This document shows, piece after piece, positions 14,641 through 31,610 of a stretch of 64,000 nucleotides of DNA. The stretch spans positions 202,001-266,000 of the forward strand of contig CAUYUJ010014542.1 in assembly GCA_963575745.1 (NCBI GenBank), written 5' to 3'. The notes below the pieces were generated by a model. That model was not told where the DNA came from. It saw nothing but the letters and a program-made list of their open reading frames with translations, and ran no database searches. Position numbers and translations under genes: made by a program. This stretch comes from Prorocentrum cordatum (taxonomy: Eukaryota; Sar; Dinophyceae; Prorocentrales; Prorocentraceae). The stretch's first letter is position 1. Each line of letters begins with the position of its first letter.

Positions 14641-14815
14641 AAGCTCCAAGACGGGCCAAGAGTGCCCCAAGAGGCCTCCAAGACGGTCCAAAAGGGCCCC
14701 GAATCGCCGAACGACTTGTCCAAGACGCCTTGACGGACTCCAGACGACCCAAGAGCCCTGCAAGACGCTCCAAGAGGCCTACCAGGAGCACTCCCAAGAC
14801 GGCCCCAAGAAGCTA
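14641..14815. repeat. CCAAGANGGCC-type repeat block (copy 2)
   Basis: Same repeat family as 7000-7525. It lies about 55 bp left of the outer edge of the copia element, whose right flank has the same family at 31255. Confidence 0.7.
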
Positions 14816-14870
14816 AATTCATTGATGTCCTATTGTTTTTTTTAATGATTTTGGCGTTCTCGACTCTTCA

Positions 14871-15154
14871 GTCGAAAACAAGCTGGTAAGCTTAGGTATG
14901 TGTTACGCTTTAAGCGTTGCCATATCCCAGGCTTTGGCTCATATCGCATGAGCAAGAGTGCAAGACGAAGCATGGGATCTGGAGTAAAGGATAGGATGGG
15001 CATCGTCAATGGAAAAGGTATTTTCCGATCTCTGATGCAAGTCGTGCGCCTCAGTGAGGCACAGTCATATATTTGGCCGGGCCCGGCTTGAGCCAGGCAC
15101 GGCAGCGGTACATGCTCGATTTATACCTCGCCTTTAACCTTCTCCGTTTAAAGT
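14871..15154 (-). repeat. 3' LTR of the copia element
   Basis: 284 bp repeat, 98.9% identical to 30961-31244. Read in the element's sense direction it begins ACTTTAAACGG and ends TGTTTTCGAC, so the ends are not the usual TG...CA. It contains a GCCTC-AGT-GAGGC inverted repeat at 15047-15059. The base pairs inside it (15155-15174) are purine-rich on the plus strand, so no normal polypurine tract precedes this LTR on the sense strand. Confidence 0.9.
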
Positions 15155-15258
15155 CGGAGGGGGAGGAGACGAGCAGGCACCGCACTTCTACACTATGCGG
15201 AAAAACAGTGCTAAGCAGCAGCGGCTGCCTACAAGGAAGGGGCGCGCGAGTAGCCTCG

Positions 15259-18200
15259 CTACCGGCGAGTTTCCTCGCTACTAAAGCGCACCTGCCCGCG
15301 GGTTTCCCCGCTGGCTCGGGAGGCAGGGCCGTCCTGAGACGACCTGCCCGCCCTATACGGCGTATGTTTCTTCAGCTCGTGCTTGAAGGATTGCTGGCCG
15401 GCCATTACTTGTAGGAGCAACGCGCGGTCAATACTACCTTTGGTATGACCATCGGCAGTCATATCCCGCGTGTCACACCATTGGACGCTTTCCACGATTC
15501 CGCGTTCCATCATCTGGCGGATCCAGCTGATGTGCCCAAGCAGAGTACATTCTGTGGGCTTCTTCAGATCTTTGCTAGACAAAGACTTGAAGACAGACTC
15601 GGCATCAATAGTCAGAGTGACTTTGATACATAGACCACCCATTTCCAATATGTTCTTTAACTGTGTGGGGGTCAATGGTCCCGAGTGTAGCTCGTGGAGC
15701 GTTACAATGGTCGGGTAGCAGTCTTCCAAGTTGTGGGCTGCTGCCAGTGTTTCCGCAGAGTAGCTCGAACGCACCTGCAGTCGATGAGACTTGCAGTATG
15801 CGTCCACCAGGTGCACGACGGGTTTCCCCGCTTGCGTGTGGCCACGCCTCAGCAGGTTAGCCCCGCGGATACCATAGCCTTTGACTTCGTCGTCTTCATC
15901 TCCGTTGAGACGACGATAGCCAGAATCGCTATGCAGGTCGACTTCTCCTGTTGGGGTCATAGCTTGATACACGATCTTCTTCGGACCTGCCTGTAGCTTT
16001 CTGGTAACCGCGTTTAGTCGTCGTACCTGGATGTTTGTCGGTTCCTGGATACGTTGTAGTGAGACAACATAGACCATCAGCCATACCTGCGTGATCAACG
16101 CATAGGCTAGAGCGCCACGAAGACTGACGAACATATCAGAAATCGTCTTTGTCGCTTTGCTCTCAGGATCAGCTCCTGTGAGTTCTGGATGTGTGATAGG
16201 ACGAAGCTGTTTGATGTATTCGTCCTGATCGAGAGTGACGCTCCCATCATCGGTCTTGTTGTACCGAACGGCACAGTTTGTGTATGTGTGCTTGTTCAGT
16301 TTGCACTTCCCAAACGTATCTTCAACACACTTGACATACTTGTCAATAGCCTCTTCCTTCCCAGTCATATTGATGTCATCAACGTGCTTGGCTGTCAAGA
16401 GGTTTGGGCTCATCTCGAACTCTTCGTCGTATGAAGTAGGCTGTAGCCCAAAGCTCCTAGTGATGGACCTGAGCTTCAGCGAGAATGCCCTGGGAGCATC
16501 CTTCGTGCCCGTCCCCGGTTTCAGACACCGGAGACAATGCTTTGATTCGTCATATGACTCAAAGCCTGGCAGTGTGCGAAGGACAGCTGCTGACCCAGGT
16601 GGTAGTGTGAAGCACACCACACGCTCTTTCTCGCCCGTTGCCGCGGCGAGCTCGCCATAGGTCAGTCCCTTCAAGAAAGCCATGTTGATGTCCAGGGAAG
16701 CGATGATCCAAGCTTTGTTGCATGCAGCAGAACTTGCGAGCAGTCTCTGGCTTGACCTCCTTGCCGTGCCAGAGAAGGTTTCGACATCAAAGGCTTCAAG
16801 GTCCATGAAGCCACGGAGTACCAAGCGTAACCTGATCGTCCTTTCCATTTCGCCCTTTTCGTTCTTGACAAACTTCCATTTGTATACGTAGCGTGACGTC
16901 ATGATGTTAGACGCCTTGCTTAAGTCAGTCATCTGGAAGCATTTGTTGTCAAGCCAAGTCTTCAATTCTGTGTAGAGGGCTTTGGAAACTTTGACCGGAT
17001 TTGCTTGGATGTCGGCCTTCGTGAGTAGATCGTCTTCCTTGACGACCACGGCACGTTTGGAGGCAGCGCTAACGTATACTCGCATAGTTGTGACGCTGCT
17101 GTCATCCAACAATCGGTGTTGCTGCTCGGACAGGACGACTTTGGACATGTCTGCAGTGAAGCAGAGCTCGATGTACTTCCCGTGCTCATCGGAGTCCAGA
17201 TCATATTTGCTATCCGGATCCGTGGAGCATAAAGGAACGTAGTAAGAAGTGTCCATGTCGTATCCTGGCGGGTGACCCCGCTCCGGCAAGTGGCCTTGCA
17301 CATCTTCACAGGTCGTAGAGACTAACACACACTGTGTGTCTGTCATGTATGTGGGAACTGTATGCATGACTTCCTCTGTGTCAGCTTCAAGGAGTGTTCT
17401 GTCATCCATCAGTTCAGCATACCACGACTTCAAGACAAAAGCATCCAGATCTTCTTCTGTTTCCTCTATGATGGTCGGGAGCCGACCATCGTTATCCGTA
17501 GGAGGCTCCTCAGGAGCAGCTGCTGGAGGTGATTCGCTTGGTGGTGGACCATCAGCGAGTTCCTCAAACTTAGTGAGGTCTTGGTCAAATCCAGCAGACG
17601 GCTTCCTGGATTTAAGACACTGGATGATGCGTGAGTGTGTAGATCCTGTGATGTCATAGATGTTCAAGGCAGTGCCATCAGCTTCATAGTAATGAAAACC
17701 AGGGGTCACATCATTATCATAGTGCACTAGTGTACAGCTGTCTGCATAGGGTGCAGCAGGCAACTTCGTCAGGCTCTTGGCAAGTCGTACAGCAACAACG
17801 TTTTCAATACGAAAGTAGTTGCGTATGAGGTACTGAAGAGCCAAGTGCACCTTAGGCGAAAGTCGGCTCGCAGCAGTCATCTGCAGCCGACCCTGTTTCG
17901 CTGGTAGATATCCGAAAGTCATGGCGGGTTTCCCCGCTGGCAGACCGGCAATAAAGGCCAATACTGTCCGAAGGGCCGTATTGTCCGATCCTATCTCGCG
18001 GACCATAAGTGCTTCGATGTACAGTGTGTGTCGTGTGTCAGGATACTGTACTCGCACTTCGCGACTGCCGACCTTCACGATGACCTGGCCTCGGTCAGGT
18101 TCGTTGCGGATGACCGGGTATGGACCACTCCATCCACCCCAGTCGTCTTTCGTGGTGGTCGGGCGATGATAGTCCACGAGATCTCCCTCTTTGTAGTGAA

Positions 18201-21200
18201 ATTCACCCGTAGCAGTAGTCTTCGTACGGAGAGCCCTGTTCGTCTTGGCAACCGCAGTGGCCTGCGTGATTGCCTCCAGACTAACCCTCCTGATTGTTTC
18301 CTCCCTTGAGTGATCTGATGATTCAGCGGACTGATCATGATCCAAGACAGGGAAATCGGGAAGCATAGCTGGTTGTCTGCCATACAGCGCATTGTACGGA
18401 GACACTTCATTGTAGAAGGTAAATGCGTTGCTGGCAAACAAGGCTTCATGTAAGAGACGAGTGAAATTGAGAGGAATATTTAATCTATTCAATTCTTCTC
18501 CCATCACGTGTAAGAGGTGTCGCAGGATGCCGTTCCTAGCTTCGATAGTTGTAGCGTGTTGGCCACGCGCTCGAATACGAAGCTCTGTTCCCTTAGCCTT
18601 AAGGATGGCCTTTGCTGTATCATTATTCAGTGCTCCTTCCCCATCGGAGTATAAGATTTTAGCAGGGCCATGTTGCATCCAAGTCGTATGATAGGCATCG
18701 AGAACAGTATGCATGGCTTTATCAGGAATCTCTGTGCCAGCTGCCCAGCGAATACAACGGTCGATGATGTGAAAAACAATATGTTCCTGTTTGTAAAAGA
18801 AAAGATCACATTCGACTTCCTCGTTGAAACGTCCTGGCAGTGACACAGAAGGCATCACCGTGTTGCCTGGTTTGTCCCAGGCTCGACATTCTCTACACGA
18901 GTCACAAATGCCTTTGATCAGACTCAAACGGGTTTCACCCAGACCAACCTTGGTTAGAATCATCCGCATTTTTGGCTCCTTGGCATGAAACCATCTCAGG
19001 TGGAGTTTGCGGAGTTCTCGCTGCACTACAGCTGGGTCGAAGCTGCGCAGGTTTTGGAGGCTGAGCTGAACGTCGAAGCGAGTCCAATCAGGGAGCCTTG
19101 GCCTTGGCCTCGGCTCTGCTTGAGGCTGCGGCGGTGGTGGAGGATCTCCTCCCTCCATGCGTCCGCGCCTTGCTGCAACTTGTGGCAGTCTACGGTGATC
19201 GTCAGAGCTGCCAGCGCCAGTGTTGCCACCATTAGCCCCTTCGGCTCTGGTGATGTCATGGCTGCTGGCGCCTGCGGTTGGATCGCCCTCACCAGGCCGT
19301 GGCGGCCTAGGCGCGCGTATGCGCGCTCTCGCGGCCGGCGCCGCTTTTGCGGCTGGCGCCGCTTCTGCGGCTGGAGCCGCTTCCGCGGCTGGCGCCGCAG
19401 GAGCGGCTTGCCCCGCCGGGCGCGGCTGGCCAAAGTTATCTGGCAGCTTCCATTTTTCGGCGAATCTGCATTGGCCAGATATCTTGGTGTGGTGAGGATT
19501 GCTCTTCTGATATTCCTTCTTACAGCTTGGACAGTCCCAGTAATACGGTTCAACATCATACCACCGACACATCTTCGGATCCCTGCTGTGCTTTGGTGAT
19601 TGCTTGTAGTTGTTGTCCACACAGCCAGGGCACCCAAGACCGCCAGGTGGTGGTCGCCAGATTTCTCCGTTTGGGTGTCTCCGGATTGTTGGGTCGTCCA
19701 AGTCGTAGCCAGCACTGTTTGTTACGAACGCATAGCTGCGTTCACGATTCGCGAATGGATCGCGACCGTAAGCAAACAGGTCTTTGGCGATTTGCACCGC
19801 ATCAACGATCAGTGACTGCATTCTGTAGGTATACTGTGCCGCCCTTGCTAGTTCTTTATTACAAGCATTGGCGTGCACATGATTACCTGGACAACGCTTG
19901 CCTCTGAAAGGTGCCAACAACTCTTCTTTGTTTGCCATCATCTGTGTTGGCTTGCGGATGTATTGTCCAAATGAATCTTTGAGACCAGTCGTGCACTGAT
20001 CAATAATCGTTTGGCAAGTGACCTTGCGTTGTGCCAGTTCCTTCCATGGCTGGATCTCATCCACCCACGTGCCCATTGGTTGTTCCCTGAGAAAGAAACG
20101 TCTTAGGTCGTCTTGTAATAGAGCGACTGTTCCACAGAACGTGATGTGAGGCAGGTCCTCTTTGTGGTGTTTAAGCCACGTATCATGGTTGACCTGTGCA
20201 TTGAAATAGGAAGGAAGTCCAGTAGTTCTGCAGCTTGGCTGCAGAATCGTGATCTTGACAAAGCAAGTCTTGAGGTAGTGGAGGACTGCTCTTTGTACTT
20301 CCGAGTTTCCAAGGTCAACCATAGATATCTTGTCAAGGTTCCCGCCTGACGAGAGTCCCCTCTTGAAGGCTAATATGGATATACCACCCTTGCCCCCACA
20401 TAATTCAAGCATGTCCACTTGATTGTTTCTGCCGTAGCATAATGACTGGACTATCGAGAAGACATCAGCATGTGAGTCAGCGGGTTGCCCCGCCGGTAAC
20501 ATCATGAAGATGTCCTCTGATTCGCTGTCCGAGTCCGAGTCGTCAAGAGGAACGTCGTTGAAATATGTGGAGCAGTCAAGCCCTTTGAGGTCCTCTCCAC
20601 AGTCGTCGTTACCGTCTTCCACTTTCTTCGGGACTTTCTTCGGTTTGATGCCGGCTTCTTTGTCAGCTTTCTGCTTTTCTTTCTGTTTTATCCTGGCATC
20701 AGTGGGCAACGCAGTTTCCGCGGAGAGATCCGCTGCGGAGGAATCCGCTGTAAAGTCAGGAAATGGCGGAATTTCAGGAAGGTTGTTGGTGGGTCGCGTT
20801 TGGCAACGCTCAATCGAAGGGGGAGGAGATCGATCGTCGTCGACGATCGTCACACGCTTTGGGCGTGGCCTTCGCGACTCACCATTGCCATGAAGAACTG
20901 GAGCCGGAGGCTCCCAGTATAGCCGAGTACTGATGTTTGTAACCCCATCAGGTAATGGAGCTACATAATTGTACCCAGTTGGCTGATCCTGGATTCTGAT
21001 ATCTTGAACGATCTTGTTCGTGTCCAGGTCGGTCGTGACTCTACGAACCACATGGTCCCATTGAGGGCCCTTTTGTGGACATTGGACGTAGTGTCTGACC
21101 TTTTTGTCAACGCGTGTACACACACTGAGGTGTACCGCACTCCGCTCATTCCTGATCATGTTGGCTTTATCGAGTTGATCAAGGAAGCGTGCAATAATAA

Positions 21201-21657
21201 TAGCCAAAGTTTTATACCGAAACTCGGCACGTTGCTGATCTTGGCCATACCAATCCAAATCATGCTCCTTGTGTGATCCACAAGTACATTTCCATAAGTT
21301 TATCGGTATATGAGGACAAGATGTAGCAACTTGTATATAAGAACCACTGGGATATTTACTGGATCGGTCAAACTTGATACCGAAATGACAGAGTCTGATT
21401 CGTATAATGCTTAGCTTCAAATCTTCGATAACATCTTTGATCGGACCCTGTTTCCAGAAATACCCGGGTGGCCCCAGGATAACTATCTGCATTCTCAGAG
21501 CACGCGCTTTGATCAGGAGATTTTGTATACGTTGATAATGTGGTCCCGCCCTCTTTCCTGGAGTACGAACGTACCAATCAGAGGGTGTGGCCACCCACAA
21601 CATATTGTAGTCTCCTGCCAACAAATTTCCCAAATACTGTGTTCCAGTTGAAGTCAT
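15259..21657 (-). CDS. pol: Copia Pol: integrase, reverse transcriptase, RNase H
   Basis: Open frame of 2132 codons from the first ATG; it is in the same frame as the protease ORF and separated from it by a single TGA at 21861-21859, so it is probably made by readthrough. Integrase zinc-binding H-x4-H is near 19000 and C-x2-C near 18900. The catalytic triad is in VECDLFF (about 18810), LYSDGEG (about 18650) and TIEARNG (about 18540). A copia-type RT (family RVT_2) follows with KWKFVKNEKGE, SLDINMAFLKG and the active-site variant HVDDINM (16386-16366). RNase H has LHSDSGYRR (about 15940) and SSYSAETLAAA (about 15770). The N-terminal ~700 residues before the integrase are Lys/Asp-rich with Cys-rich pairs (GCPGC, WDCPSCK) and are not assigned. 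It ends 105 bp before the 3' LTR. Confidence 0.9.
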   Translation of the reverse strand: MTSTGTQYLGNLLAGDYNMLWVATPSDWYVRTPGKRAGPHYQRIQNLLIKARALRMQIVILGPPGYFWKQGPIKDVIEDLKLSIIRIRLCHFGIKFDRSSKYPSGSYIQVATSCPHIPINLWKCTCGSHKEHDLDWYGQDQQRAEFRYKTLAIIIARFLDQLDKANMIRNERSAVHLSVCTRVDKKVRHYVQCPQKGPQWDHVVRRVTTDLDTNKIVQDIRIQDQPTGYNYVAPLPDGVTNISTRLYWEPPAPVLHGNGESRRPRPKRVTIVDDDRSPPPSIERCQTRPTNNLPEIPPFPDFTADSSAADLSAETALPTDARIKQKEKQKADKEAGIKPKKVPKKVEDGNDDCGEDLKGLDCSTYFNDVPLDDSDSDSESEDIFMMLPAGQPADSHADVFSIVQSLCYGRNNQVDMLELCGGKGGISILAFKRGLSSGGNLDKISMVDLGNSEVQRAVLHYLKTCFVKITILQPSCRTTGLPSYFNAQVNHDTWLKHHKEDLPHITFCGTVALLQDDLRRFFLREQPMGTWVDEIQPWKELAQRKVTCQTIIDQCTTGLKDSFGQYIRKPTQMMANKEELLAPFRGKRCPGNHVHANACNKELARAAQYTYRMQSLIVDAVQIAKDLFAYGRDPFANRERSYAFVTNSAGYDLDDPTIRRHPNGEIWRPPPGGLGCPGCVDNNYKQSPKHSRDPKMCRWYDVEPYYWDCPSCKKEYQKSNPHHTKISGQCRFAEKWKLPDNFGQPRPAGQAAPAAPAAEAAPAAEAAPAAKAAPAARARIRAPRPPRPGEGDPTAGASSHDITRAEGANGGNTGAGSSDDHRRLPQVAARRGRMEGGDPPPPPQPQAEPRPRPRLPDWTRFDVQLSLQNLRSFDPAVVQRELRKLHLRWFHAKEPKMRMILTKVGLGETRLSLIKGICDSCRECRAWDKPGNTVMPSVSLPGRFNEEVECDLFFYKQEHIVFHIIDRCIRWAAGTEIPDKAMHTVLDAYHTTWMQHGPAKILYSDGEGALNNDTAKAILKAKGTELRIRARGQHATTIEARNGILRHLLHVMGEELNRLNIPLNFTRLLHEALFASNAFTFYNEVSPYNALYGRQPAMLPDFPVLDHDQSAESSDHSREETIRRVSLEAITQATAVAKTNRALRTKTTATGEFHYKEGDLVDYHRPTTTKDDWGGWSGPYPVIRNEPDRGQVIVKVGSREVRVQYPDTRHTLYIEALMVREIGSDNTALRTVLAFIAGLPAGKPAMTFGYLPAKQGRLQMTAASRLSPKVHLALQYLIRNYFRIENVVAVRLAKSLTKLPAAPYADSCTLVHYDNDVTPGFHYYEADGTALNIYDITGSTHSRIIQCLKSRKPSAGFDQDLTKFEELADGPPPSESPPAAAPEEPPTDNDGRLPTIIEETEEDLDAFVLKSWYAELMDDRTLLEADTEEVMHTVPTYMTDTQCVLVSTTCEDVQGHLPERGHPPGYDMDTSYYVPLCSTDPDSKYDLDSDEHGKYIELCFTADMSKVVLSEQQHRLLDDSSVTTMRVYVSAASKRAVVVKEDDLLTKADIQANPVKVSKALYTELKTWLDNKCFQMTDLSKASNIMTSRYVYKWKFVKNEKGEMERTIRLRLVLRGFMDLEAFDVETFSGTARRSSQRLLASSAACNKAWIIASLDINMAFLKGLTYGELAAATGEKERVVCFTLPPGSAAVLRTLPGFESYDESKHCLRCLKPGTGTKDAPRAFSLKLRSITRSFGLQPTSYDEEFEMSPNLLTAKHVDDINMTGKEEAIDKYVKCVEDTFGKCKLNKHTYTNCAVRYNKTDDGSVTLDQDEYIKQLRPITHPELTGADPESKATKTISDMFVSLRGALAYALITQVWLMVYVVSLQRIQEPTNIQVRRLNAVTRKLQAGPKKIVYQAMTPTGEVDLHSDSGYRRLNGDEDDEVKGYGIRGANLLRRGHTQAGKPVVHLVDAYCKSHRLQVRSSYSAETLAAAHNLEDCYPTIVTLHELHSGPLTPTQLKNILEMGGLCIKVTLTIDAESVFKSLSSKDLKKPTECTLLGHISWIRQMMERGIVESVQWCDTRDMTADGHTKGSIDRALLLQVMAGQQSFKHELKKHTPYRAGRSSQDGPASRASGETRGQVRFSSEETRR

Positions 21658-21826
21658 TACCTCATTATGGGTAATCCGGTCGCATATATATCCACGGGTT
21701 CGGAGTTCAGCGCAAGCTGTGCGAATATCTTCGATGACAAGACATTTTGAATGATATTTTTCCTCTCGGGCCTCAGCGCGGCCAACGTATGTCGCGAGGA
21801 GGCCGGTATTCGGCTTCTCTTCGCAA

Positions 21827-21861
21827 GCGAGCGCCGCCGGCGCGCCCGCCTGCCCCCGTCA
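21827..21861 (-). promoter_or_regulatory. Putative stop-codon readthrough signal (UGA-CGG plus stem-loop)
   Basis: Protease and Pol share one frame, broken only by TGA at 21861-21859; every codon from 21858 to the Pol ATG at 21657 is sense. The next codon is CGG. After a 9 nt spacer (21858-21850) comes an 8 bp stem, GCGGGCGC (21849-21842) with GCGCTCGC (21834-21827), containing one G-U pair and a 7 nt loop. Established knowledge: UGA followed by CGG or CUA and a structure about 8 nt downstream is a recognised readthrough context in plant RNA viruses, and murine gammaretroviruses place a structure about 8 nt after their Gag stop. Inference: a fraction of ribosomes extends protease into Pol. 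Alternative: a point mutation that simply inactivates this copy. Confidence 0.6.
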
Positions 21862-24800
21862 GCGGCGGTCGTGTGACCACGTTGCCGTCTGACTCGGGGG
21901 CATGCTGTTAGCGGATGGCTCCGCAGGAGTCGCTGGTGCGGCTACGCTCACGATCTCCACGCGGGTTGGCCCCGCAGAGTCCGACGAACCTCCGCCCGTG
22001 TAGCTTGGTGGTGGTGGCGGTGTCGCGGGTGGCCCCGCTTGGTTCTCAGGCGTCCATTTATTCACCGCCTCCTGGACTGCCCAAAATATCTTGGACTTCA
22101 GGGCATCCTTCATATGTGGCCAGGTCCCTTCGGGACACTGTTGGCCCTCCCACCAGCTGTTCAGCGTCCTGTCCACGATCAAACGGGTCGTGTCTTCCAG
22201 GAGCTGCTTGTCGAGATACGGCTCGACAATGTACGTATCAGTCGTGACGGTCATGGACTGTCCCGTCGCGGGTTGCCCCGCTGTGGTCTCGGCGGGTGGC
22301 CCCGCACTTACTCCGGCGGGTGGCCCCGCACCTACACCGGCGGGTGGCCCCGCACTGACGGGGTCCTCTTCGTTCTCCGTCTCGGTGTAGCCATCCCGAC
22401 TGCTGCGGATTGTGAAGGTGTTCGTGACCGTCTGGCTTTTAGCCCCGTCATACAAACCGCAGGGAATGGCTAGATGTCCTGAGGGGGTTTTCTTCGCCCT
22501 CAGGACCTTGGCGCCCCTCCCCAGCTTCAGAGTATAATCTCCGCTGGGGAAGATAACCTTCTGGTAGCCTGGCTTCAGCACGATGATCGTGTCACGTGCT
22601 TCCATGGCACCAAGGCCCCAGATGGCCGGGAGGTTGGCACCCGAGCCTTCTGCGATGTTGGAGGCATACTCCTCGATACGGGGGCTTGCCTCATTGGCGT
22701 ATTGCACCCCGATCTTGAAGTTGCCCATTTTCCGACATATCGCAGCACCCTCACCGACACCGTTAATGTAGAGGGTCTTGCTCAGGGTGCATATGGCAGG
22801 TCTATGATTGTACCTGGCCATAGCCTCCTGGAAGGTTCGCGCCGTATTGGCTCCAATGATGTTCACGTTGGAGCCAATGTCTAGCATGAACGAGATGCAC
22901 GGCAGTCCGTCTTCGTCGGGAAAGAATGTCCCATTCCGCGCTGCCAGAGCCATCGTACCATGGTCATCGGTGTGGTACGTAATCTGTGAACCGAGTGTGC
23001 CTTTCAACAGGCGTTGTTCAAGCACCCATTGGCTCATGGTTAACTCGGTGCACCACATCTGCTCATATTGGCGGCGCTCCTCTACGGTAATTGGTTCCTG
23101 TTCAAGAACCCAATAATTCGCAGAGAGTGTGGACATCCATTCACCTCCTGGCGGCAGCGTGTCCGTGTCGTCACGTGCATAGGTCAGCCCTTTTGTATCG
23201 ATCATGAATGTGGTGTGGAACTGGGCTGCCTCCGCGCTCTCAGCGCTTGCCCGGCTCCTAGCGCTGACCGGGCTTGCCACACGTGAGGTCCTGGATGATC
23301 CAGTCGGCCTGCGCGTACCGCCTCCGCTCCTGCCACTCCGCCTGATGTTGGCCTCCATTGCCCTCAGGAATCCTGGATTCGGAGGTCCATTTGCGGGTGG
23401 CCCCGCTTTGGCGGCGGGAGCCGCTTCGGCGGGTGGCCCCGCTGCTGGGGGCTCCTGTGCTCGAAGCGTAGGCAGGATTGGCATCTGGATGCCTTGCTCT
23501 GGCGCTGGCCAGGGGGATGCCTGTGCAGCTGGGGCACGTGCGGATGGCTCCGCCGAGTGCGCGGCTCGAGCCTCTAGTGCCTCCACTGCTTCCCGTAGCC
23601 GACGCATTTCCCGGGCATCTGCCACGTACCTTTCCTGCTGGCGCGCCTGTTCCGACTCAGCGTCGCGCTGTCCAGCATACGGGAAATGTGCTGTAATTAT
23701 GCCCGGCCCACGACATACAGCGCAGGGGGCCTCGTTTGGCGCACCTGGCCGCTGATTGCGGACGTGCTGCTGTGCAACACGATCCCAGCATATATCGTGG
23801 AAGAAGTGCCCACACGCCAGTCTCCACACTGTGGTGCCCATCTCGTAGGTGTCCATACAGATTGGGCACTGTGTGAAGTTGTAGTCTGAAATGACTGGAG
23901 CAGGCACGTCTGGGCGAGTCCGAGCTTGGCGCTCGAAAGTGGTTTCGCCCTCCCGATATGGCGTCGGTGGCGGCCGTCTATCTGTCCGTTCAGCGGGTGG
24001 CCCCGCGTCTGCGGGTGTCCCCGCTTGGTTTTCACGCTCGATCCTTCTCTGGATCGCGCGTTGTTGGCGCAGCCTGGCGTTGTCCCGAGCCTGCTGCCTA
24101 GATGCCAGTATCGCTTGCTGCGTGTCGTGCACGTCGCGGATGTAGTCTGGCATGCTGCCCATAGCGGCTGGCACCGCGAGACCAGCTGGCTGAACCACGG
24201 TCTCGGGGTCCGTCGGCGTGGGCATGTAGGCGTAGTGCGGCATAGACTGCGCATCGACCGCTCGTGTAAACTGCAAACGAAACATCTCATTGGCAAGATT
24301 CCGAGTGTATTCGTTCGCAGGTGGCCCCGCAATCATAGGAGTGTTATTCATCTGCGCGTAGTACTCCGGGTACATCGGCGCGTCCATGGCCTGTGCCTCT
24401 GCTGGTCCATGATTGTCCCATCCATATATTGGGTGTGATGCTATTCCTGGAATAAACACCTGTCGATATGGATTCGTGGGATCAGCATTTGGAGCATCTT
24501 CAGAAGTCCAGCTCCAGAGAGGCCGAAAGTCGCCATGATTCGTAACATCTATGTTGCGGTTCCGCAACAGGCTGGGCACTCTATCAGCTTGTTGCTGCAG
24601 AAAGGTAGCCTGTGCTCTCAAGTTGGCTGCCCGACGTTCGTAGTCTGAACCTTGCTGTCCGTCAGCGGGTGGCCCCGCATGTGCGAGTGACTCCGCAGGC
24701 GTTCGCTCGGCGGGTGTCCCCGCAGCCACTCCTCCTTCACTACCCCTCGGAGTGCCAAAGGGAGTGGTCGCCTGGAGTGCTGCTGCGAGCGCCGGATTCC

Positions 24801-25392
24801 CGCGAATCGCCTGGAGTCTTTGCCACAAGCTGTTCTCGCTCGTTTCAGACGGCGGAGTCCGAAACGGCGAGCCACCATCTGATCCGCCCATAGGGACAAA
24901 CCTCGCACCTCCAGCTTGCTGCGGAGGGCGTTGTGGTTGTGGTCCTAGGATGCCTGGTGGCCCCGCAGGAGGGCGCAGGTTCCTCTGCTGTGCGTCTTGG
25001 ATACCTGTATGCACCGCCCACGGGTCAGCACGGTATAGCTGATCGGTTAGTCCAGAGACGTCGGCTGATGTCAAATGGCTGTTGAGGGCCTGGACCCATG
25101 ACTGCTGGTCCGGCCTCCAAGGAGATGCTACCGTTGCTACTGGTGTGACCACTTGTTGCCATGAACCGTCCGAGGTGTCTACCGCGGGTGTCCCCGCACC
25201 TGCGGGTGGCCCCGCTTCAGGCATGACCTCGTCCTCCTGGGCATTCATCATGAGGACTGTCTGTGTGTCGTACGGTCGTGGAGCAACATCTTGCTCGGTC
25301 ATGACCAAATTGAATGGACGACCGTCCGTCTTAGTCCAGCCCTTTAGGTACATGGCGTGATCTTCCATTACACCCAGAGTTCTGTCACACAT
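21859..25392 (-). CDS. RING-H2 / aspartic protease polyprotein segment
   Basis: 1177 codons starting at ATG 25392, immediately preceded by TAA in the same frame. The N-terminal ~470 residues are Ala/Pro/Gln-rich with many AGPPA-type peptides from family A hairpins. A RING-H2 finger spans about 23868-23713: CPIC, then ACGHFFHDIC, then CAVC, giving the C3H2C3 ligand pattern typical of ubiquitin E3 ligases. A retropepsin-like motif LDIGSNVNIIGA lies near 22880, where D-I-G-S is the catalytic loop of one protease subunit. Protease before integrase fits copia order. A RING finger upstream of the protease is not a standard copia feature. The reading frame overlaps the Tpt1 frame by 25 nt and ends at the TGA described separately. 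Confidence 0.85.
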   Translation of the reverse strand: MCDRTLGVMEDHAMYLKGWTKTDGRPFNLVMTEQDVAPRPYDTQTVLMMNAQEDEVMPEAGPPAGAGTPAVDTSDGSWQQVVTPVATVASPWRPDQQSWVQALNSHLTSADVSGLTDQLYRADPWAVHTGIQDAQQRNLRPPAGPPGILGPQPQRPPQQAGGARFVPMGGSDGGSPFRTPPSETSENSLWQRLQAIRGNPALAAALQATTPFGTPRGSEGGVAAGTPAERTPAESLAHAGPPADGQQGSDYERRAANLRAQATFLQQQADRVPSLLRNRNIDVTNHGDFRPLWSWTSEDAPNADPTNPYRQVFIPGIASHPIYGWDNHGPAEAQAMDAPMYPEYYAQMNNTPMIAGPPANEYTRNLANEMFRLQFTRAVDAQSMPHYAYMPTPTDPETVVQPAGLAVPAAMGSMPDYIRDVHDTQQAILASRQQARDNARLRQQRAIQRRIERENQAGTPADAGPPAERTDRRPPPTPYREGETTFERQARTRPDVPAPVISDYNFTQCPICMDTYEMGTTVWRLACGHFFHDICWDRVAQQHVRNQRPGAPNEAPCAVCRGPGIITAHFPYAGQRDAESEQARQQERYVADAREMRRLREAVEALEARAAHSAEPSARAPAAQASPWPAPEQGIQMPILPTLRAQEPPAAGPPAEAAPAAKAGPPANGPPNPGFLRAMEANIRRSGRSGGGTRRPTGSSRTSRVASPVSARSRASAESAEAAQFHTTFMIDTKGLTYARDDTDTLPPGGEWMSTLSANYWVLEQEPITVEERRQYEQMWCTELTMSQWVLEQRLLKGTLGSQITYHTDDHGTMALAARNGTFFPDEDGLPCISFMLDIGSNVNIIGANTARTFQEAMARYNHRPAICTLSKTLYINGVGEGAAICRKMGNFKIGVQYANEASPRIEEYASNIAEGSGANLPAIWGLGAMEARDTIIVLKPGYQKVIFPSGDYTLKLGRGAKVLRAKKTPSGHLAIPCGLYDGAKSQTVTNTFTIRSSRDGYTETENEEDPVSAGPPAGVGAGPPAGVSAGPPAETTAGQPATGQSMTVTTDTYIVEPYLDKQLLEDTTRLIVDRTLNSWWEGQQCPEGTWPHMKDALKSKIFWAVQEAVNKWTPENQAGPPATPPPPPSYTGGGSSDSAGPTRVEIVSVAAPATPAEPSANSMPPSQTATWSHDRR

Positions 25393-26265
25393 TTAAGTGG
25401 CAGGTAGTCATCGGTGCGAATCCTGTCCGCGGGTTGGCCCCGCCTCCGCGACTTGTCATAAGCCAGCGGATTGCTCCAGGCTTCGCCGACCCGATATTTC
25501 GCAATGCTCACAATCTGGAGGATATGATCGGGCGGTATACGTCCGTCGTGGCCCCGTGTCATGACTATGTCATTTGCTGATCTCCATAGGGAGAAGCCAC
25601 TGGACAGCATCTTGTTGATGCTGCAGAATATGAGCACCTCCGAGTCAGGACGGATGCCCGATTGAATCCTCGGGTCGCCCGGGAGGTAGGGGCAGCCATG
25701 CACAAATTGGCGCCCCCCCTTCCTCTTAGGGTTGTCCTGTGCGAGGCATGAAAGGCCATTAGCAAGAATGTCCTTGACATACTCCCACTGTGTCCCGTGG
25801 ATGAAATATACTGGGTCGTCTGGTTCTTTCATCCATGTTGTGATCGGCTTGTACAGCGACTCGGGACAGTGGATGCCTGGACTGCTGTGGCCGTTCGTGG
25901 CTCTGATGAAGTACTGTGGCCTGCGTGCCTTGGTCGAAACCTGGGAGGCAGCAGCATGCTGTCATCAACGCACTTCATCTGGAGCCTGCCCTTCTGCATG
26001 CCGTGATGGTCAATCATCTCACAGCAGTTTAGCAGCACCCAATACACGTATGACGTGTGGGGCCTGCCCTTGATCAGCACCTCGTGCATTTCACGATAGC
26101 CTTTCCACTGATCATTTTCAGTCCAGTTTGTCAGCAGATCGTCAACGACAACCCAGCCATCGTATGGATCGAAAGTGCTGATCTTTTCGAAGTGTCGGCT
26201 GAATCCGTCCTTCCAATATGGACTGTGGCGTAGGGCTGTAGAAAACCATATTGACACCTTGGTCA
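25368..26265 (-). CDS. Tpt1/KptA-like RNA 2'-phosphotransferase domain, split by a frame change
   Basis: The domain begins in the Gag frame (ALRHSPYW at 26236-26213, then DGWVVVDDLL) and continues in the -1 frame (YFIRATNGHSSPGI around 25911-25876; VYFIHGTQW with HGT at 25799-25791; SGIRPDSEVLIF). These match, in order, the family's LRH motif, DGWV segment, RA-x-x-GHS motif, HGT motif and S-G-(M/I)-R motif. Tpt1/KptA enzymes use NAD+ to remove an internal 2'-phosphate left at RNA splice junctions. The frame must change between the -1-frame stop at 25964-25962 and about 25900; no canonical slippery heptamer is visible, so this is either an indel in this copy or unconventional recoding. The distal half has its own ATG at 25832, overlapping the Gag stop as ATGA. 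Confidence 0.78.
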
Positions 26266-29200
26266 TCTGCCCTTCACGCGGCAAAGTCGGATCCATGCCG
26301 AACCTCTCCATGACCTTCAGGAGCTCTGCTTTATGCTGCGCAACGCGTAGTGGCGGCCTGTCTCGCAACATATTTCCCACGGTTTGTTGTTCACGTTCCC
26401 AGTCGTTGCGGCACTCGAAGTTACGACGAACAGGACAATTAATGACCTCGTATCGGTCCGTGTCGTCTGGAGTGACTCGTGGGTTTATGGTGCGCTTCGG
26501 GCCTTTGCCTTCAATGCCTTGCCAGTATTCGATGGCTCCCAAAGGGATGTTTCTTAGAACAGACATTATTGGCTGCCCTTGTGCGGGTGGCCCCGCAAAT
26601 GCAGCCGGCGGCGCTTTAACGGGTGGCCCCGCTAATGCAGCTGGCGCCGCTTTAATGGGTGGCCCTGCAGAACCTGCGGCTGACGAGGCAGCTCCAGCGG
26701 ATGACTCCGCGCCAGGGTTCGGGTGACCTTGGTCAGCAACTGCATCATCGGTTAGTTTCTGTCGGTCGCCAAATTCTTTGAGGACTTTGAAGCGTTCTTC
26801 TCTTGAGAGAGTGCCTTCTGCGGGTGTCCCCGCTGTTGCGGCTGGCGCCGCTTTAGCGGGTGGCCCCGCAGAGCCCTTGTCCTCCTTAGCCTTGGCGGCC
26901 GCTTCCGCCCGCACCGACCTCATCCCAGCTTCGGGCTTCGGCTGCGCTTTCATTCGTGCCGAACCTGGTCGTGGTGCAAGGCGCGGCTGATGCAGAGTTG
27001 GAGTCCAGTCACCTCGGAAAGCTGCCTTAGGCTTGTCGCGAACTTCGTCCTTGACATCGCCTTGGGTCGCCGGTGGCATCGGGGTCGATGGTCCAGCAAA
27101 AGCCTTCCTCCTCTCCGTCACGGACAGACCGGGAGGATCTTCCAGCTCAAGGTCGTCCGTCTTGGCGATCCCTCTGGCCTTCGCCCGCCCCTGTGTTCCT
27201 TCGGGGCTCTTGGACGGGTGCCTTTTCGCAGGAGTCGGTGAAGACGAGGAGTCGGCTTTAGGTCTTGGAGGTGGTCTGCTGCCCTTGCCCGGTTGTGGAC
27301 CAGGAGGGTCTCTAGGAGGGCCTTCTGGCTGGCCATGATCATGGATGACCTGCCTCATCTGGTCGATGTCGGCAGTACCTTTTATGGCCAGCTTGTACTT
27401 GCCATTCTCATGGCGGTAGATTACCCTCGTGCAAAACCACTTCTGCGCCGAAGAGCTGCAGTACCAGCAGGCGCTTCCATCAGGGAATGGATTCTCTGAG
27501 CCGTCTTCCGCCGCCCATTCTTCATTCAGTTCGGTGTGGTCAGTGCCGGCGGCGGACTCAGCAGCAGATGCAACAGCTATCCAATCGTCTTCCGCGGATC
27601 CAGCGGCTGGCGCTGCGTCTGCGGGTGACCCCGCTTCTTTGCTGGATTCTGCGGGTGACCCCGCCTCTTTATGGAATCGGCGGTTCCATTCCTTGAGGCG
27701 ATGGTCATTGGGAAGCTGTACCCAATTTTCCCTGACGATGTTGGCCACCTCTTCGGTCATAGGGACACGATCGGCTTCGGTGATGCGCTTTCCTCCTCCA
27801 GGGACCTCCTTATTAGGATCATGGACGTTGCCAGCGTCATCTCCATGAGACCAATTCCACGGGGTCTCACCGTGATGAGGGCTCCTGGAGGGGCGGTCCA
27901 TCGGACACCTGCGCATGTGACCTTTGAAGGGCTCGCACTGACATACTTGTTTCCTGTATGTCTTGCGATCGTTGATGATCTCCTGTTTCTTAGCCCTTTT
28001 GTCCCAAGCCTCTGGCGTCTTGGTCTTGCCACCCTTGGTACGTATTATCGCGCCAGTTTCGTCCCTTTTAGTGCAGTACTCCTTAGAATACCAGTGGCGA
28101 AGCGTGTCCATCGAGTAGCCGGGGTACCATTTGATGTACCAATCCGGCACATGCTGAGCGGATACTCCGACGGAGTGCTCAGTACTGTATGGATAGCCCG
28201 ATTCATCATGTGTAGGGCGTCTGGGAGCTGAACGGCTCCTTCTGCGGGCTGGCCCCGCTGACGCACTACCGCGTGCCATTGGCCTTTGATCGTCATGCTC
28301 TGAGTCTCGGGGAGGCGACGGTCGTCTGTCCCTCTTGGCGTAGCGCATGTCCTCCGAGTCCTCTGAGCTGTCCTGGACCATGAACACGTTTTGATACGGG
28401 CTTCTGAAGTACCCGATGTCGTTTAACTGCTCCATCGTGAGGTCGTTAATGTCCATTTGATCACAACCTTGCATGAATACATCCATAGACCAAGCGGGTG
28501 GCCCCGCTGTTGCGTCTGGCGTCTCTTCGGCGGGTGACCCCGCTAGAGCTTGGAGTGCTGTCAGCATCTGAGATGCTGACATGTCCGAATCCAAGTATGG
28601 ACGTAGACGTGCAGCTCCTGGGTGTGACAGCAGTTCGTTCATGGTTATCTGCTGATGTGCTGGCGCACTCAGGAGTCGGATTGCTTCTGAGACCTGCTCT
28701 TGGAGCATGTCCTTATAATCTTCTTCGGCTTCTTCGGAGTCGGAATGCGCGGGATGGCCCCGCATTTCGTCATCGGCGTCTCCCGCCTCCGAACCAGCCC
28801 ACGAGGGATTTGGCAGCAACGGCATGCCAATCACTTGCGGGGCCAGCACGGCGGTGAGTTCTTCCTCTGTTGCCGGGACGGTCTCGGCTTCGGAGACCTC
28901 GTCGCCGGCGGGTGGCCCCGCTGGAAGACCGAACCAAGCATTGTACGCGACCTCGTCGACCTCGTCCCAGCCGTGGAACTCGTCGAAGAGGGTCACTGCG
29001 TAGTCTTCCAGGGCTACAGTTGCTTCAGCGTAGCGGGCCATCACGTAATACGTGGAGGAGCCCGCGGCGGGAGCCGCTTCTGGATTGACGTAAAACTCGT
29101 AGTCAATGTAATCTATGTCATCCATAAAAGAATTTTGAGCCAAATGTACGGATCCCTTTCCTTTCCCCTTCGGGCATTGATCGCGCAAATGCTCTGTGCT

Positions 29201-31093
29201 ACCGCATGTATGACACTTCATAGTATTGCCAGAAGCGTCCCTAGGGTTGCCCCTCCGCCCTTTTCCCTTACCGGAGGTCCGCCTGTGACCCCGACCTTTG
29301 CCTCCGATAAGAACTTCTTCAAAAGCCATATCAGTTAAGGACGTGAGGAAAGCAGTAATACCCCTACCATGCATACGGCGTCTGCGACCCCCTTTGCCAC
29401 GACCCTTTCCAAATCGTTTGAAATGTCGGCGTACTGCACGTCTCACCTTTCTGACTGGTTTCTTCATAAAGCGCCTCCAACGGCGTTTTGATTTGCGATA
29501 AGCCATAAAGGCGGCTTCCGCTCTTTGTTGTTCAGAGAGGTGAGTGTCATCCGCTGGGTAGTCATTACCAGCAGAGACTATGCCATTGTGCTCATCGTCA
29601 GATGAGGTATCCGTGTCAGTGCCAGATTCAAACGGTGAGGGTGGCTGAGACCCTTGAGCGGATGACTCCGCTTGGCCCCAGAGGGTTGTGCCCGAGGGCG
29701 GGCTTGCAGTGTAGGCGGCGCCTGGCGAGTAGTTCGACCAGGCGTTCGCCTCAGCTGCCTCTGCCGATGCCTGGCCAGTCTGCCCTAAAAAGGCAGTGGC
29801 CTCGTTGGGCATATCGGCTGGGTCAGCCCAGGGATTTGGCTCGCCAGGACCAGCGGGTGACCCCGCAGTCGTGGCGTAGACACCTGCATGTGAGTGGTGC
29901 CCTGTGAAGATACCCGCTATGTTGCCAGGAGAGCGCTCGGCAACATGTCCGTAGTTCCTCATCCTGGTCAGCAGCCTGTCATAGTCTGCTTGTGTTCGGG
30001 GCATCTGATGATTGAAGGGCTCAAGCAGGTGTTGGGCTCGTGACGCGCCAACGCCTAACGCTCTGAAGAGAATCAGCGTTAGGATCTGAAAGTTGGGGAT
30101 GACAAAGCCAACAGAGTTAGCCTCGTCACGGGCCATCTCGAATCGAGCTAATACTGAGTCGATTCGCTCGCCCCTTTCGACGCGGAAGTCGATAAGGGCA
30201 GTGCCAGAGTTGAGCTGGCGCTCATCTTCCAGATTTTCAAATTTGGTGCTCAGTAAGTACAGTATATATGTTACTGCATCCGTTGGCTGTCCATTGACAG
30301 TTACACCATAATTGATGATCTGGGAGGGGACCTGCATGGCGATACGACGAGCCAGACCTTGAAGGCCTCGTTGTAGTGCTGCAGCTTGTTGTGGTGGTGT
30401 CATATTGCCACTCGTTACGTTTAACCATGCATGTACTTCGCGAACGTATTCGCGAAAAGGCGTAGTACCGGCAGGGTCCCATGAAGGGCCAGTAGTACGC
30501 GTGTCGTCCATCCCCTGCCGCATGTATCCCACAGCACATCCCATTATTACCCACAGAATGCCGAATATAGTTATCTTGATCCAATGCATGTGCATTTCGG
30601 CTTCGGTGATTGGTTTAGGCTGTGGTTTGTCAGGCTCTGGCGTAGTAGCCGTGAGGCGCCTGACTGGCACGGGATGCAGGTGGCCCCGCTGCGGGTAGCC
30701 CCGCAGGGTGACCACGTTCTCGATCGAGTTGCCGATTGGCATCTGGTGGAAGTCGGGAGTGAAGTAGCGCAGTGAAGTAGGAGAGAGCGTCTCGAGTTCG
30801 CGGGTTGCCCCGCTAGCTCGATCGCGGACTGGCTCCGCTCCTCGCAGAGCCGGCGCAACATGGTATTCCACCGTAGTAGTAGTCCACCAAGTTGTGCCGT
30901 GGATTACAGGAATCAGAGCGAGAGCCAGCCACACGAGAGTGTAGCCAGCTCCGCTACCAAGTCGAAAACAAGCTGGTAAGCTTAGGTATGTGTTACGCTT
31001 TAAGCGTTGCCATATCCCAGGCTTTGGCTCATATCGCATGAGCAAGAGAGCAAGACGAAGCATGGGATCTGGAGTAAAGGATAGGATGGGCAT
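25829..31093 (-). CDS. gag: Gag-like protein with two membrane-like segments and a CCHC knuckle
   Basis: The frame is open from 31201, inside the 5' LTR, but the first in-frame ATG is at 31093, also inside the LTR; later ATGs are possible. Two hydrophobic stretches, LVWLALALIPVIHG (about residue 90 of the open frame) and ITIFGILWVIMGCAVGYM (about residue 210, near 30570), look like membrane segments. A conserved-looking helical region (residues ~250-450) has the position of a copia capsid. A zinc knuckle C-x2-C-x4-H-x4-C is at 29215-29174, preceded by an Arg/Lys/Gly-rich tract. The C-terminal third is Ala/Pro-rich and then enters the first half of the Tpt1-like domain. At more than 1750 residues it is far larger than a usual copia Gag (about 300-450). 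Confidence 0.8.
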   Translation of the reverse strand: MPILSFTPDPMLRLALLLMRYEPKPGIWQRLKRNTYLSLPACFRLGSGAGYTLVWLALALIPVIHGTTWWTTTTVEYHVAPALRGAEPVRDRASGATRELETLSPTSLRYFTPDFHQMPIGNSIENVVTLRGYPQRGHLHPVPVRRLTATTPEPDKPQPKPITEAEMHMHWIKITIFGILWVIMGCAVGYMRQGMDDTRTTGPSWDPAGTTPFREYVREVHAWLNVTSGNMTPPQQAAALQRGLQGLARRIAMQVPSQIINYGVTVNGQPTDAVTYILYLLSTKFENLEDERQLNSGTALIDFRVERGERIDSVLARFEMARDEANSVGFVIPNFQILTLILFRALGVGASRAQHLLEPFNHQMPRTQADYDRLLTRMRNYGHVAERSPGNIAGIFTGHHSHAGVYATTAGSPAGPGEPNPWADPADMPNEATAFLGQTGQASAEAAEANAWSNYSPGAAYTASPPSGTTLWGQAESSAQGSQPPSPFESGTDTDTSSDDEHNGIVSAGNDYPADDTHLSEQQRAEAAFMAYRKSKRRWRRFMKKPVRKVRRAVRRHFKRFGKGRGKGGRRRRMHGRGITAFLTSLTDMAFEEVLIGGKGRGHRRTSGKGKGRRGNPRDASGNTMKCHTCGSTEHLRDQCPKGKGKGSVHLAQNSFMDDIDYIDYEFYVNPEAAPAAGSSTYYVMARYAEATVALEDYAVTLFDEFHGWDEVDEVAYNAWFGLPAGPPAGDEVSEAETVPATEEELTAVLAPQVIGMPLLPNPSWAGSEAGDADDEMRGHPAHSDSEEAEEDYKDMLQEQVSEAIRLLSAPAHQQITMNELLSHPGAARLRPYLDSDMSASQMLTALQALAGSPAEETPDATAGPPAWSMDVFMQGCDQMDINDLTMEQLNDIGYFRSPYQNVFMVQDSSEDSEDMRYAKRDRRPSPPRDSEHDDQRPMARGSASAGPARRRSRSAPRRPTHDESGYPYSTEHSVGVSAQHVPDWYIKWYPGYSMDTLRHWYSKEYCTKRDETGAIIRTKGGKTKTPEAWDKRAKKQEIINDRKTYRKQVCQCEPFKGHMRRCPMDRPSRSPHHGETPWNWSHGDDAGNVHDPNKEVPGGGKRITEADRVPMTEEVANIVRENWVQLPNDHRLKEWNRRFHKEAGSPAESSKEAGSPADAAPAAGSAEDDWIAVASAAESAAGTDHTELNEEWAAEDGSENPFPDGSACWYCSSSAQKWFCTRVIYRHENGKYKLAIKGTADIDQMRQVIHDHGQPEGPPRDPPGPQPGKGSRPPPRPKADSSSSPTPAKRHPSKSPEGTQGRAKARGIAKTDDLELEDPPGLSVTERRKAFAGPSTPMPPATQGDVKDEVRDKPKAAFRGDWTPTLHQPRLAPRPGSARMKAQPKPEAGMRSVRAEAAAKAKEDKGSAGPPAKAAPAATAGTPAEGTLSREERFKVLKEFGDRQKLTDDAVADQGHPNPGAESSAGAASSAAGSAGPPIKAAPAALAGPPVKAPPAAFAGPPAQGQPIMSVLRNIPLGAIEYWQGIEGKGPKRTINPRVTPDDTDRYEVINCPVRRNFECRNDWEREQQTVGNMLRDRPPLRVAQHKAELLKVMERFGMDPTLPREGQMTKVSIWFSTALRHSPYWKDGFSRHFEKISTFDPYDGWVVVDDLLTNWTENDQWKGYREMHEVLIKGRPHTSYVYWVLLNCCEMIDHHGMQKGRLQMKCVDDSMLLPPRFRPRHAGHSTSSEPRTATAVQASTVPSRCTSRSQHG
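30948..30959 (-). promoter_or_regulatory. Primer-binding site (initiator Met-tRNA type)
   Basis: On the sense strand the 5' LTR ends TGTTTTCGAC, then one T, then TGGTAGCGGAGC. Copia elements commonly prime from initiator methionine tRNA with TGGTATCAGAGC or TGGTAGCAGAGC; this differs from the latter at one position. The placement one base inside the LTR also fits and fixes the LTR boundary. Confidence 0.75.
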
Positions 31094-31244
31094 CGTCAAT
31101 GGAAAAGGTATTTTCCGATCTCTGATGCAAGTCGTGCGCCTCAGTGAGGCACAGTCATATATCTGGCCGGGCCCGGCTTGAGCCAGGCACGGCAGCGGCA
31201 CATGCTCGATTTATACCTCGCCTTTAACCTTCTCCGTTTAAAGT
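30961..31244 (-). repeat. 5' LTR of the copia element
   Basis: Same 284 bp as 14871-15154; the differences are a T/A at 31049, a T/C in the ATATATYTGG string near 31163 and a T/C near 31198. The minus-strand reading frame of Gag is open through most of the LTR, so the N-terminus may be LTR-encoded depending on the transcription start. Confidence 0.9.
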
Positions 31245-31254
31245 TCCCCCCCTT

Positions 31255-31610
31255 CCCGACGCTCCAAGACAAGCCAAGAGGCCCCCAAGATCGCCCTAAG
31301 ACGGCCCAAGAGGCCTCCAAGAGGGTCCCAAAACGGCCCAAGAAAGCGCAAAGACGGCCCAAGACGTCTCCAAGACGGTCCTAGAGGCGCCCAAGACGGC
31401 TCCAAGAGGGTGCCCAGATGCGGGACCCGACCTGACATGTCGAGCTCTCAGCCCTGAGAGGCTCCCAGGAGGCCCCAAGAGGCTCCAGGAGGCCCCCACG
31501 AGGCCCCAAGGAGGCCCCCAGGAAGCTCCAAGAGGCCCCCAAGCGACTCCCAACAGGCCCCCAAACTGCTCCCCAGAGACCCGAAAGAGCGCTCCAAAGA
31601 GACCCCACGA
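31255..31610. repeat. CCAAGANGGCC-type repeat block (copy 3)
   Basis: Same family as 7000-7525 and 14641-14815, beginning about 10 bp outside the 5' LTR. Together with copy 2 it suggests the copia element inserted into, or beside, such a block. Confidence 0.7.

Follow-up and report, generated by a model that had tools for sequence, protein, structure and literature searches.

The 64,000-nucleotide (nt) stretch of the Prorocentrum cordatum genome analysed here (assembly GCA_963575745.1, contig CAUYUJ010014542.1, positions 202,001 to 266,000), hereafter the window, carries a copia-type long terminal repeat (LTR) retrotransposon at 14870-31244, with the minus strand as its sense strand. Dozens of mini-hairpins with 5-bp stems and 4-nt loops are dispersed through this element. 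Sequence comparisons strongly support the view that they are structures of the sense RNA: in related elements the two halves of a stem change in concert, and it is therefore apparently the shape of the RNA that counts. We hold with moderate confidence the fuller explanation that they are selected RNA hairpins, multiplied by template switching, that putatively serve as docking sites for Gag.

A family of mini-hairpins in the sense RNA

A preliminary description of this DNA had reported at least 42 perfect hairpins inside the element, with four stem versions (GCGGG/CCCGC, GCGGC/GCCGC, GCGGA/TCCGC and GCGAG/CTCGC). We found 43 of these 14-mers, all starting between 15246 and 30800, and none elsewhere in the window. 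The element harbours further compensated stems (GCGTT/AACGC, GCGTG/CACGC and GCAAG/CTTGC), and its perfect stems of the form GCG...CGC number 47. Sense loops read GNNA in 37 of the 43 four-stem hairpins, much as first counted (36 of 42), and in 39 of the 47 GCG...CGC stems. Most of these loops fall outside the GNRA tetraloops to which their class had been related: only 6 of the 47 are strictly GNRA, and most are GCCA or GTCA.

Five-bp GNNA hairpins of any stem are far more numerous on the sense than on the antisense strand of the element (47 vs 9). Among nine near copies with a single non-Watson-Crick pair, seven have a G-U pair in the sense RNA, including all five sites at which plus-strand A-C mismatches had been pointed out (15828, 24317, 26619, 26637 and 30676); the first of these falls within the G-U copy at 15818-15831. 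The 14-mers are also near-perfect dyads in double-stranded DNA, as a site for a DNA-binding protein of the host or the element would be. The sense polarity of the loop letters, the tolerance of G-U pairs and the conservation of the loop G and A described below make such a role in DNA very improbable. The proposal that these are RNA elements gained from the same polarity and G-U tolerance, together with the conservation of the stems and the compensated changes within and between families.

Pairing beyond chance and coding constraint

Synonymous shuffles of the three large open reading frames (ORFs) of the element (n=200) averaged 3.0 family hairpins and never exceeded 8, whereas the actual sequence has 42; equal density in codon-shuffled controls, which had been named as a ground for rejecting the hairpins, was thus not found. 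When the order of codons was shuffled (n=200), the mean was 0.2 and the maximum 2. The initial statement that every stem change is matched on the other arm was circular, because only perfect copies had been listed. It is nonetheless supported by a frame test in which pairing is not assumed beforehand and nothing but the outer GC/GC and the loop G..A is fixed (sense GC-NNN-GNNA-NNN-GC): all three inner pairs matched in 43 of 59 sense frames of the element, compared with 4 of 11 antisense frames and 0 of 7 frames with ANNG loops. Outside the element, the window gave one match in 54 frames (0/32 and 1/22 by strand). These counts do not represent independent events, because the 43 matched frames are paralogous copies within one element and 28 of them share the GGG triplet. 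The covariation score of the 32 distinct frames was 0.489, against 0.134±0.030 after shuffling, and none of 500 shuffles reached it. A general feature of the host genome is disfavoured: the window outside the element offers a single matched frame, and in C250, the one mid-distance copia element examined in the genome, matched frames amounted to 0/16 and 2/14.

The palindromes might also be incidental to a repeated linker peptide, AGPPA or AAPAA. AGxPA resembles a flexible linker, and 38 of the 47 GCG...CGC stems lie in one register, but the other two registers are used by four stems each and one stem is noncoding. Furthermore, GCG GGG NNA CCC GCN encodes 24 of 26 AGxPA peptides, the base beyond the stem being free to vary; in one of the two exceptions a CCT codon makes a G-U pair, and the other, an AGLPA, has unrelated codons. 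Among peptides of the broader type A[GAEV]x[PAST]A, those with G have P as the partner residue in 26 of 28 cases, those with A have A in 13/19 and those with E have S in 4/7. In ORF3 of the diverged family C18344, six of seven hairpins lie in another register with other residues. AGxPA is rare in 22 close relatives (five in all), but these are ORF3-type proteins, and the window's own ORF3 has only three. Because all three registers are used and the codon pattern is fixed, a peptide constraint cannot be the cause, and we regard this explanation as hardly credible.

Conservation of stems among near copies

Eight further copies of the element, compared in two parts (L022 and L024 are incomplete in the second), are 92-98% identical to the window and 87-99% identical among themselves over the first 10 kb. 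Pairwise differences, calculated for the seven genomic copies other than the window and its near twin, were 0.010 in the stems and 0.081 in their flanks, an eightfold contrast, with 0.059 in the element outside the hairpins. Third codon positions also differed less in the stems (0.025 vs 0.111), and in the loops the G and A differed less than the middle (0.022 vs 0.066). Many loops hold site-specific letters at allelic sites while the stems are conserved. The non-Watson-Crick pairs of haplotypes at variable allelic sites comprise 22 G-U and 11 other mismatches, an excess to be read against the polymorphisms outside, of which 862 are CT and 777 AG.

Exchanged stems in diverged relatives

Element C3 of the same genome shares 43-73% protein identity with the window element, depending on the ORF3 block (55% over the longest, of 940 residues). 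In its clear copies, a tally that leaves out about ten less regular ones, the third pair is G-C in eight (GCGGG/CCCGC), G-U in nine (GCGGG/CCTGC), A-U in three (GCAGG/CCTGC) and A-C in none. A second family, C18344, with ~52% protein identity in ORF3, has 34 five-bp hairpins in 9 kb, of which 21 have GNNA loops, 18 of them strictly GNRA and 12 GAAA. Its frame test matched 20 of 25 frames with 12 different inner triplets, as against 0/3 for antisense frames and 0/3 for the control loop. All four Watson-Crick types occur at pairs 3 and 4, and the covariation score of 22 distinct frames was 0.576 (0.120±0.035 shuffled; reached by 0 of 500 shuffles). The frame test itself presets the outer pairs; in the unrestricted list of GNNA hairpins of C18344, which is free of that restriction, 20 of 21 have outer G-C/C-G pairs. 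The ORF3 part of C18344 contains eight hairpins, compared with a mean of 0.7 and a maximum of 4 in 200 codon-preserving controls, and a twin copy (90.3% identical) differs over 16 hairpins at 2 of 160 stem positions and 59 of 384 flank positions. Thus, the family is less private to the window element than had been described: the GCGGG version was amplified there, its commonest 14-mer having 8343 genome matches vs 127 for the reversed control, but the class is also found with other stems in C3 and C18344 and, by protein-level inference, in database relatives.

Some sites are common to several families and carry different stems. The hairpin at 17924-17937 (minus strand, like all those of the window element) reads GCGGG-GAAA-CCCGC, and the aligned sequences are GCGGG-GCGA-CCTGC, with a G-U pair, in C3 and GCAGG-GAAA-CCTGC in C18344. 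At 17268-17299, the window element has two adjacent hairpins, GCGGG-GTCA-CCCGC at 17268 and GCAAG-GCCA-CTTGC at 17286, while C3 has GCGGG/CCTGC and C18344 GCTCG/CGAGC. In 22 close database relatives, hairpin-compatible peptides near this site were flagged in 15 and absent from seven; 12 of the 15 were judged clear and three doubtful (P0005, P0008 and P0023), with ~18% of such peptides being compatible by chance. The clear peptides (LGDE/LGNE, HGNV/HGDV, RGNT, PGNR and TGNG) would imply, at the protein level, at least five different stems. Two more aligned sites have exchanged peptides in relatives, and the window has no hairpin at either. For most hairpins of the window element, no counterpart at the corresponding place could be demonstrated in C18344.

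Multiplication of hairpin-bearing segments

Length differences between copies often come in hairpin units of 18, 24, 30 or 36 nt. Of 45 indel blocks with a length of 9 nt or more, twelve overlap a perfect hairpin; this enrichment is an impression rather than a test, because homopolymer inserts, contig ends and in-frame indels without hairpins (e.g. of 21 and 66 nt) are also on the list. Inspection of the nine copies revealed, beside such tandem changes, two apparent gains at non-homologous sites by copying. Copies L009 and L015 have at 21911 a 42-nt segment matching 24710-24683 as found in L021, and L017 has near 27282 a segment that resembles 26870-26815 and contains one perfect hairpin and two imperfect ones. 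In C3, a mismatched hairpin unit was apparently inserted in a conserved stretch. This copying would be most simply explained by switches of template in the course of reverse transcription.

The variable tandem numbers, the copied segments, the insertion in C3 and the amplification of GCGGG in one element family are what functionless mini-palindromes would produce if they spread by template switches of the reverse transcriptase and their in-frame copies were tolerated. A self-propagating insert tolerated in coding sequence had been put forward at the outset, and its propagation is retained here; mere tolerance is not, because a few sites shared between families, some of them known at the protein level only, have swapped stems. 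Constraint is not absent after insertion, as stems at allelic sites are conserved far beyond their flanks while loops retain site-specific letters. Moreover, C18344 with its 12 inner triplets does not look like the outcome of one spreading version. Functionless spread is thus unlikely in our view.

Possible roles of the hairpins

We propose that a clade of dinoflagellate copia-type LTR retrotransposons carries the hairpins as RNA structures on its genomic (sense) RNA. Each unit has a 5-bp stem, typically with outer G-C/C-G pairs and compensated variable inner pairs, and a tetraloop bounded by G and A, placed in any register that fits. As the comparisons show, selection maintains the pairing and hairpin segments multiply by tandem duplication, two of them apparently having been copied to distant sites, probably through template switching of the reverse transcriptase at the hairpins. 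The outer G-C/C-G pairs, the free but paired inner bases and the G..A loop suggest that shape, and not stem sequence, is recognized. The hairpins may represent many weak docking sites, read by the shape of the tetraloop and the helix base, for an element-encoded RNA-binding protein. From general knowledge of retroelements, the most likely candidate would be the arginine-rich and zinc-knuckle region of Gag. Such docking would permit the selective packaging and condensation of the 16-kb RNA, similar to dispersed signals in some RNA viruses. More tentatively, the clade as a whole might write an iterated hairpin code read by shape, with 20 (in 9 kb) to ~47 hairpins of one shape but free base-pair identities per element, putatively used by the element's own protein to recognize its RNA among others and seeded by jumps of the reverse transcriptase from hairpin to hairpin.

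The hairpins might instead act as RNA alone, through compaction or dimerization by GNRA-type contacts, through control of translation or pausing of the reverse transcriptase, or in escape from host RNA surveillance. Loops of the GAAA/GNRA class, known for tertiary contacts, prevail in C18344 as described above, and hairpins are present in all three large ORFs. Nevertheless, the GCCA and GTCA loops that dominate the window element do not belong to this class. Halves of the 11-nt tetraloop receptor motif show no clear excess (CCTAAG, 6 vs ~4.0 expected in the window element and 0 vs 2.2 in L038), and hairpin spacing is irregular. We consider roles of the RNA alone somewhat unlikely. Neither tetraloop-receptor pairing nor regular spacing found support, and Rfam searches at the gathering score gave no match in the element or in L038.

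The irregular spacing also belongs to a series of observations that weigh against the docking hairpins that we propose. In local folding of 174-nt segments, only 28 of 47 stems reach a pairing probability of at least 0.5, because equal arms compete. Site 24683 has an A-C mismatch in seven of nine copies and site 26697 is decayed in one copy. The loss of stems when arms mutate, named at the outset as a reason to abandon the hairpins, thus applies to these single sites and is not the rule. Frames with Watson-Crick pairs throughout number only 8 of 32 in C3, though more pair with G-U. At the protein level, a blind stem scan with strict GNRA loops exceeded all 24 shuffles in only three of 23 relatives (P0016, P0022 and P0125), and it missed the window's own ORF1 and ORF2, the loops of which are mostly not GNRA. 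Residue coupling in xG[ND]x' over 306 sites of the 22 close relatives was 93 vs 54.0 expected (z 6.1; z 2.7 in mid relatives), but the test is not specific, as the control xG[ST]x' scored as high (z 6.9); protein-level coupling is therefore weak evidence, and we relied on DNA instead. Lastly, the basic stretch and CCHC knuckle of ORF1 are also found, at the protein level, in six relatives without the AGxPA motif (P0128-P0133), and so do not visibly track the hairpins.

Comparison with known systems

Palindromic elements of Rickettsia are inserted in frame in genes, and like the present hairpins they have multiplied and are tolerated inside protein-coding sequence. They are bacterial and much longer, whereas the units described here are 14 nt long, belong to one group of retroelements and show covariation of their stems. 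The boxB hairpins of lambdoid phages are likewise small, with GNRA-like loops and phage-specific stems, and are read by arginine-rich N peptides. A phage genome has one or two such sites with a proven partner, in contrast with dozens of sites and a candidate partner here. Structured genomic RNA with packaging-linked roles is known for the LTR retrotransposons Ty1, in its 5' RNA, and Ty3, with a genome RNA map (PMC5454406, PMC11381356); the abstract excerpts of these papers describe nothing like the dozens of copies of one covarying mini-hairpin in the dinoflagellate element.

Single-stranded RNA viruses, e.g. MS2, provide the closest working analogue in their dispersed packaging signals (review PMC6281560, article PMC4751978). 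As excerpts of these publications present them, such signals share with the element many short stem-loops spread through coding RNA, with a common loop or stem theme and tolerated stem changes. Here, by contrast, the carrier is a copia-type LTR retrotransposon of a dinoflagellate, which has a putative protein partner and has amplified its stems by copying them internally. The element does have numerous similar stem-loops on a single genomic RNA that selection maintains, but its membership in the class of dispersed packaging signals is unproven. Among the matches listed from openly licensed papers, the excerpts contained no matching report of such hairpins in LTR retrotransposons.

Organization of the host element

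The element extends beyond the stretch to which the preliminary description had assigned it, and is bounded by 285-nt direct repeats with 3/285 differences, the 3' LTR at 14870-15154 and the 5' LTR at 30960-31244 (both minus strand). The 3' LTR is devoid of GCG...CGC hairpins. In sense orientation, the LTR ends at 14870 and 31244 read ACTTTA...TCGACT, not TG...CA; no target-site duplication was evident by eye at these positions, and the borders given are provisional. Arrays of an 11-nt CCAAGAGGCCC-like unit (31249-31572) adjoin the 5' end of the element, with a related copy near the other end (14631-14700). Single copies of the element, e.g. L019 near window position 22312, contain inserts of ~50-200 nt made almost purely of T or A, which may reflect either biology or an assembly artefact.

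All ORFs are on the minus strand. ORF1 (25829-31201) is gag-like and includes an arginine-rich stretch as well as a CCHC knuckle; its true start is probably downstream, because it overlaps the 5' LTR. Its C-terminus looks like the beginning of a KptA domain, and a short ORF (25368-25832) codes for the C-terminal part of a KptA/Tpt1 RNA 2'-phosphotransferase domain (PF01885, E 9.7e-11), such that this domain is apparently split over two overlapping frames. ORF1 pieces neighbouring the KptA region have 94-99% identical counterparts inside three P. cordatum gene models. ORF2 (21859-25392) combines a RING finger (residues 508-561) with a DIGSN motif, which we take to be aspartic-protease-like. RING models also occur in several database relatives, and the element might possibly encode a ubiquitin ligase.

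ORF3 (15259-21657) codes for a copia-type reverse transcriptase. RVT_2 (PF07727, E 2.3e-10, above the cut-off) was its sole match in the Pfam scan; integrase and RNase H regions are presumably also present, and PF00665 was detected in 5 of 120 listed relatives. Identities to ORF3 range from 74% to 34% among the matches listed, the named ones being proteins of the dinoflagellate Symbiodinium. Protein searches returned ten matches for ORF1 and one for ORF2. Scans of viral contigs and genome contigs confirmed no relative.

Distribution of the hairpins along the element

Identical hairpins, GCGGG-GCAA-CCCGC, are found at 30800-30813 (register 1, perfect in 9/9 copies) and 20480-20493 (identical in 9/9 copies). 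Register 2 is used at 30676-30704, with a perfect hairpin at 30691 and a G-U pair in that at 30676, and by GCGTT-GCCA-AACGC at 20796-20809. GCGAA-TACG-TTCGC at 30440-30453 has a GCG stem without a GNNA loop, and its membership is doubtful. The hairpin GCGGG-GTCA-CCCGC at 29853-29866 aligns with GCAGG-GCAA-CCTGC in C3. GCGGA-GTCA-TCCGC occurs at 29658-29671, where it encodes AESSA (in the relative P0125, an AGQPA lies no more than a few residues away, beyond a gap in the alignment), and at 26697-26710, where two copies have a G-U pair in addition to the decayed one. Other single hairpins are GCGGC-TCCC-GCCGC at 29064-29077, GCGGG-GCCA-CCCGC at 28908-28921 and 22025-22038, one with a G-U pair at 24317-24330, and GCGGA-GCCA-TCCGC at 23540-23553 and 21911-21924, the latter site receiving the copied segment in L009 and L015.

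The remaining hairpins are grouped. Two are found at 28494-28543 (28494 and 28530), and those at 27651 and 27621 lie on a 30-nt repeat present in two to four units depending on the copy, with a mismatched copy at 27603 (27603-27664). Spacing is 18 nt for the three hairpins at 26820-26869 and the pairs at 25184-25215 (three in L021) and 23993-24024. Hairpin 26583 is accompanied by G-U copies at 26619 and 26637 (26583-26650). Hairpins 24710 and 24665, with the variable copy 24683 between them (24665-24723), are the donor of the segment at 21911 in two other copies. Three hairpins span 23393-23442, where a 36-nt two-hairpin unit is doubled in L017, and four with 24-nt spacing span 22268-22353, their number differing by copy. 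Two GCGGA-stem hairpins with TTCC and TCTC loops occupy 20720-20748, where four other copies have three. The GCGGC array at 19313-19416, with 18-nt spacing, comprises hairpins 19385, 19367, 19349 and 19331, as well as 19403 (mismatched) and 19313 (GCGCG-CATA-CGCGC). Near the 3' end of the element, GCGTG-GCCA-CACGC at 15834 neighbours the G-U copy at 15818 (15818-15847), and three hairpins lie at 15246-15311: 15298 and 15265 in register 1, and 15246 just beyond the ORF3 stop, the last two with the GCGAG/CTCGC stem.

Other repeats were noticed outside the element. Another imperfect palindrome, GGGGCTGAAGCCGC, is likewise dispersed, with five copies (47530, 51081, 52877, 58468 and 59434) whose outer flanks differ and partly pair. 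The segment 35087-37288 is dense in degenerate GCTGAGGC/GCCTCAGC repeats, with about 20 dispersed clusters.

Significance

To our knowledge, except in yeast and retroviruses, little is understood of how an LTR retrotransposon chooses its own RNA for packaging. Because compensatory mutations have arisen over and over in these elements, as in a natural experiment, the sites, the tolerated stems and the loop rules are directly readable and testable. With 559 exact genome matches to one 25-mer of the element, vs 0 for the reversed control, genomic material is ample. If our proposal is correct, the protein-coding sequence of the element would contain an RNA packaging code that copies itself, and the excerpts that our literature search returned describe no such code for any retroelement. 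The hairpins also show how a structural RNA signal can overlie a protein-coding message and multiply within it.

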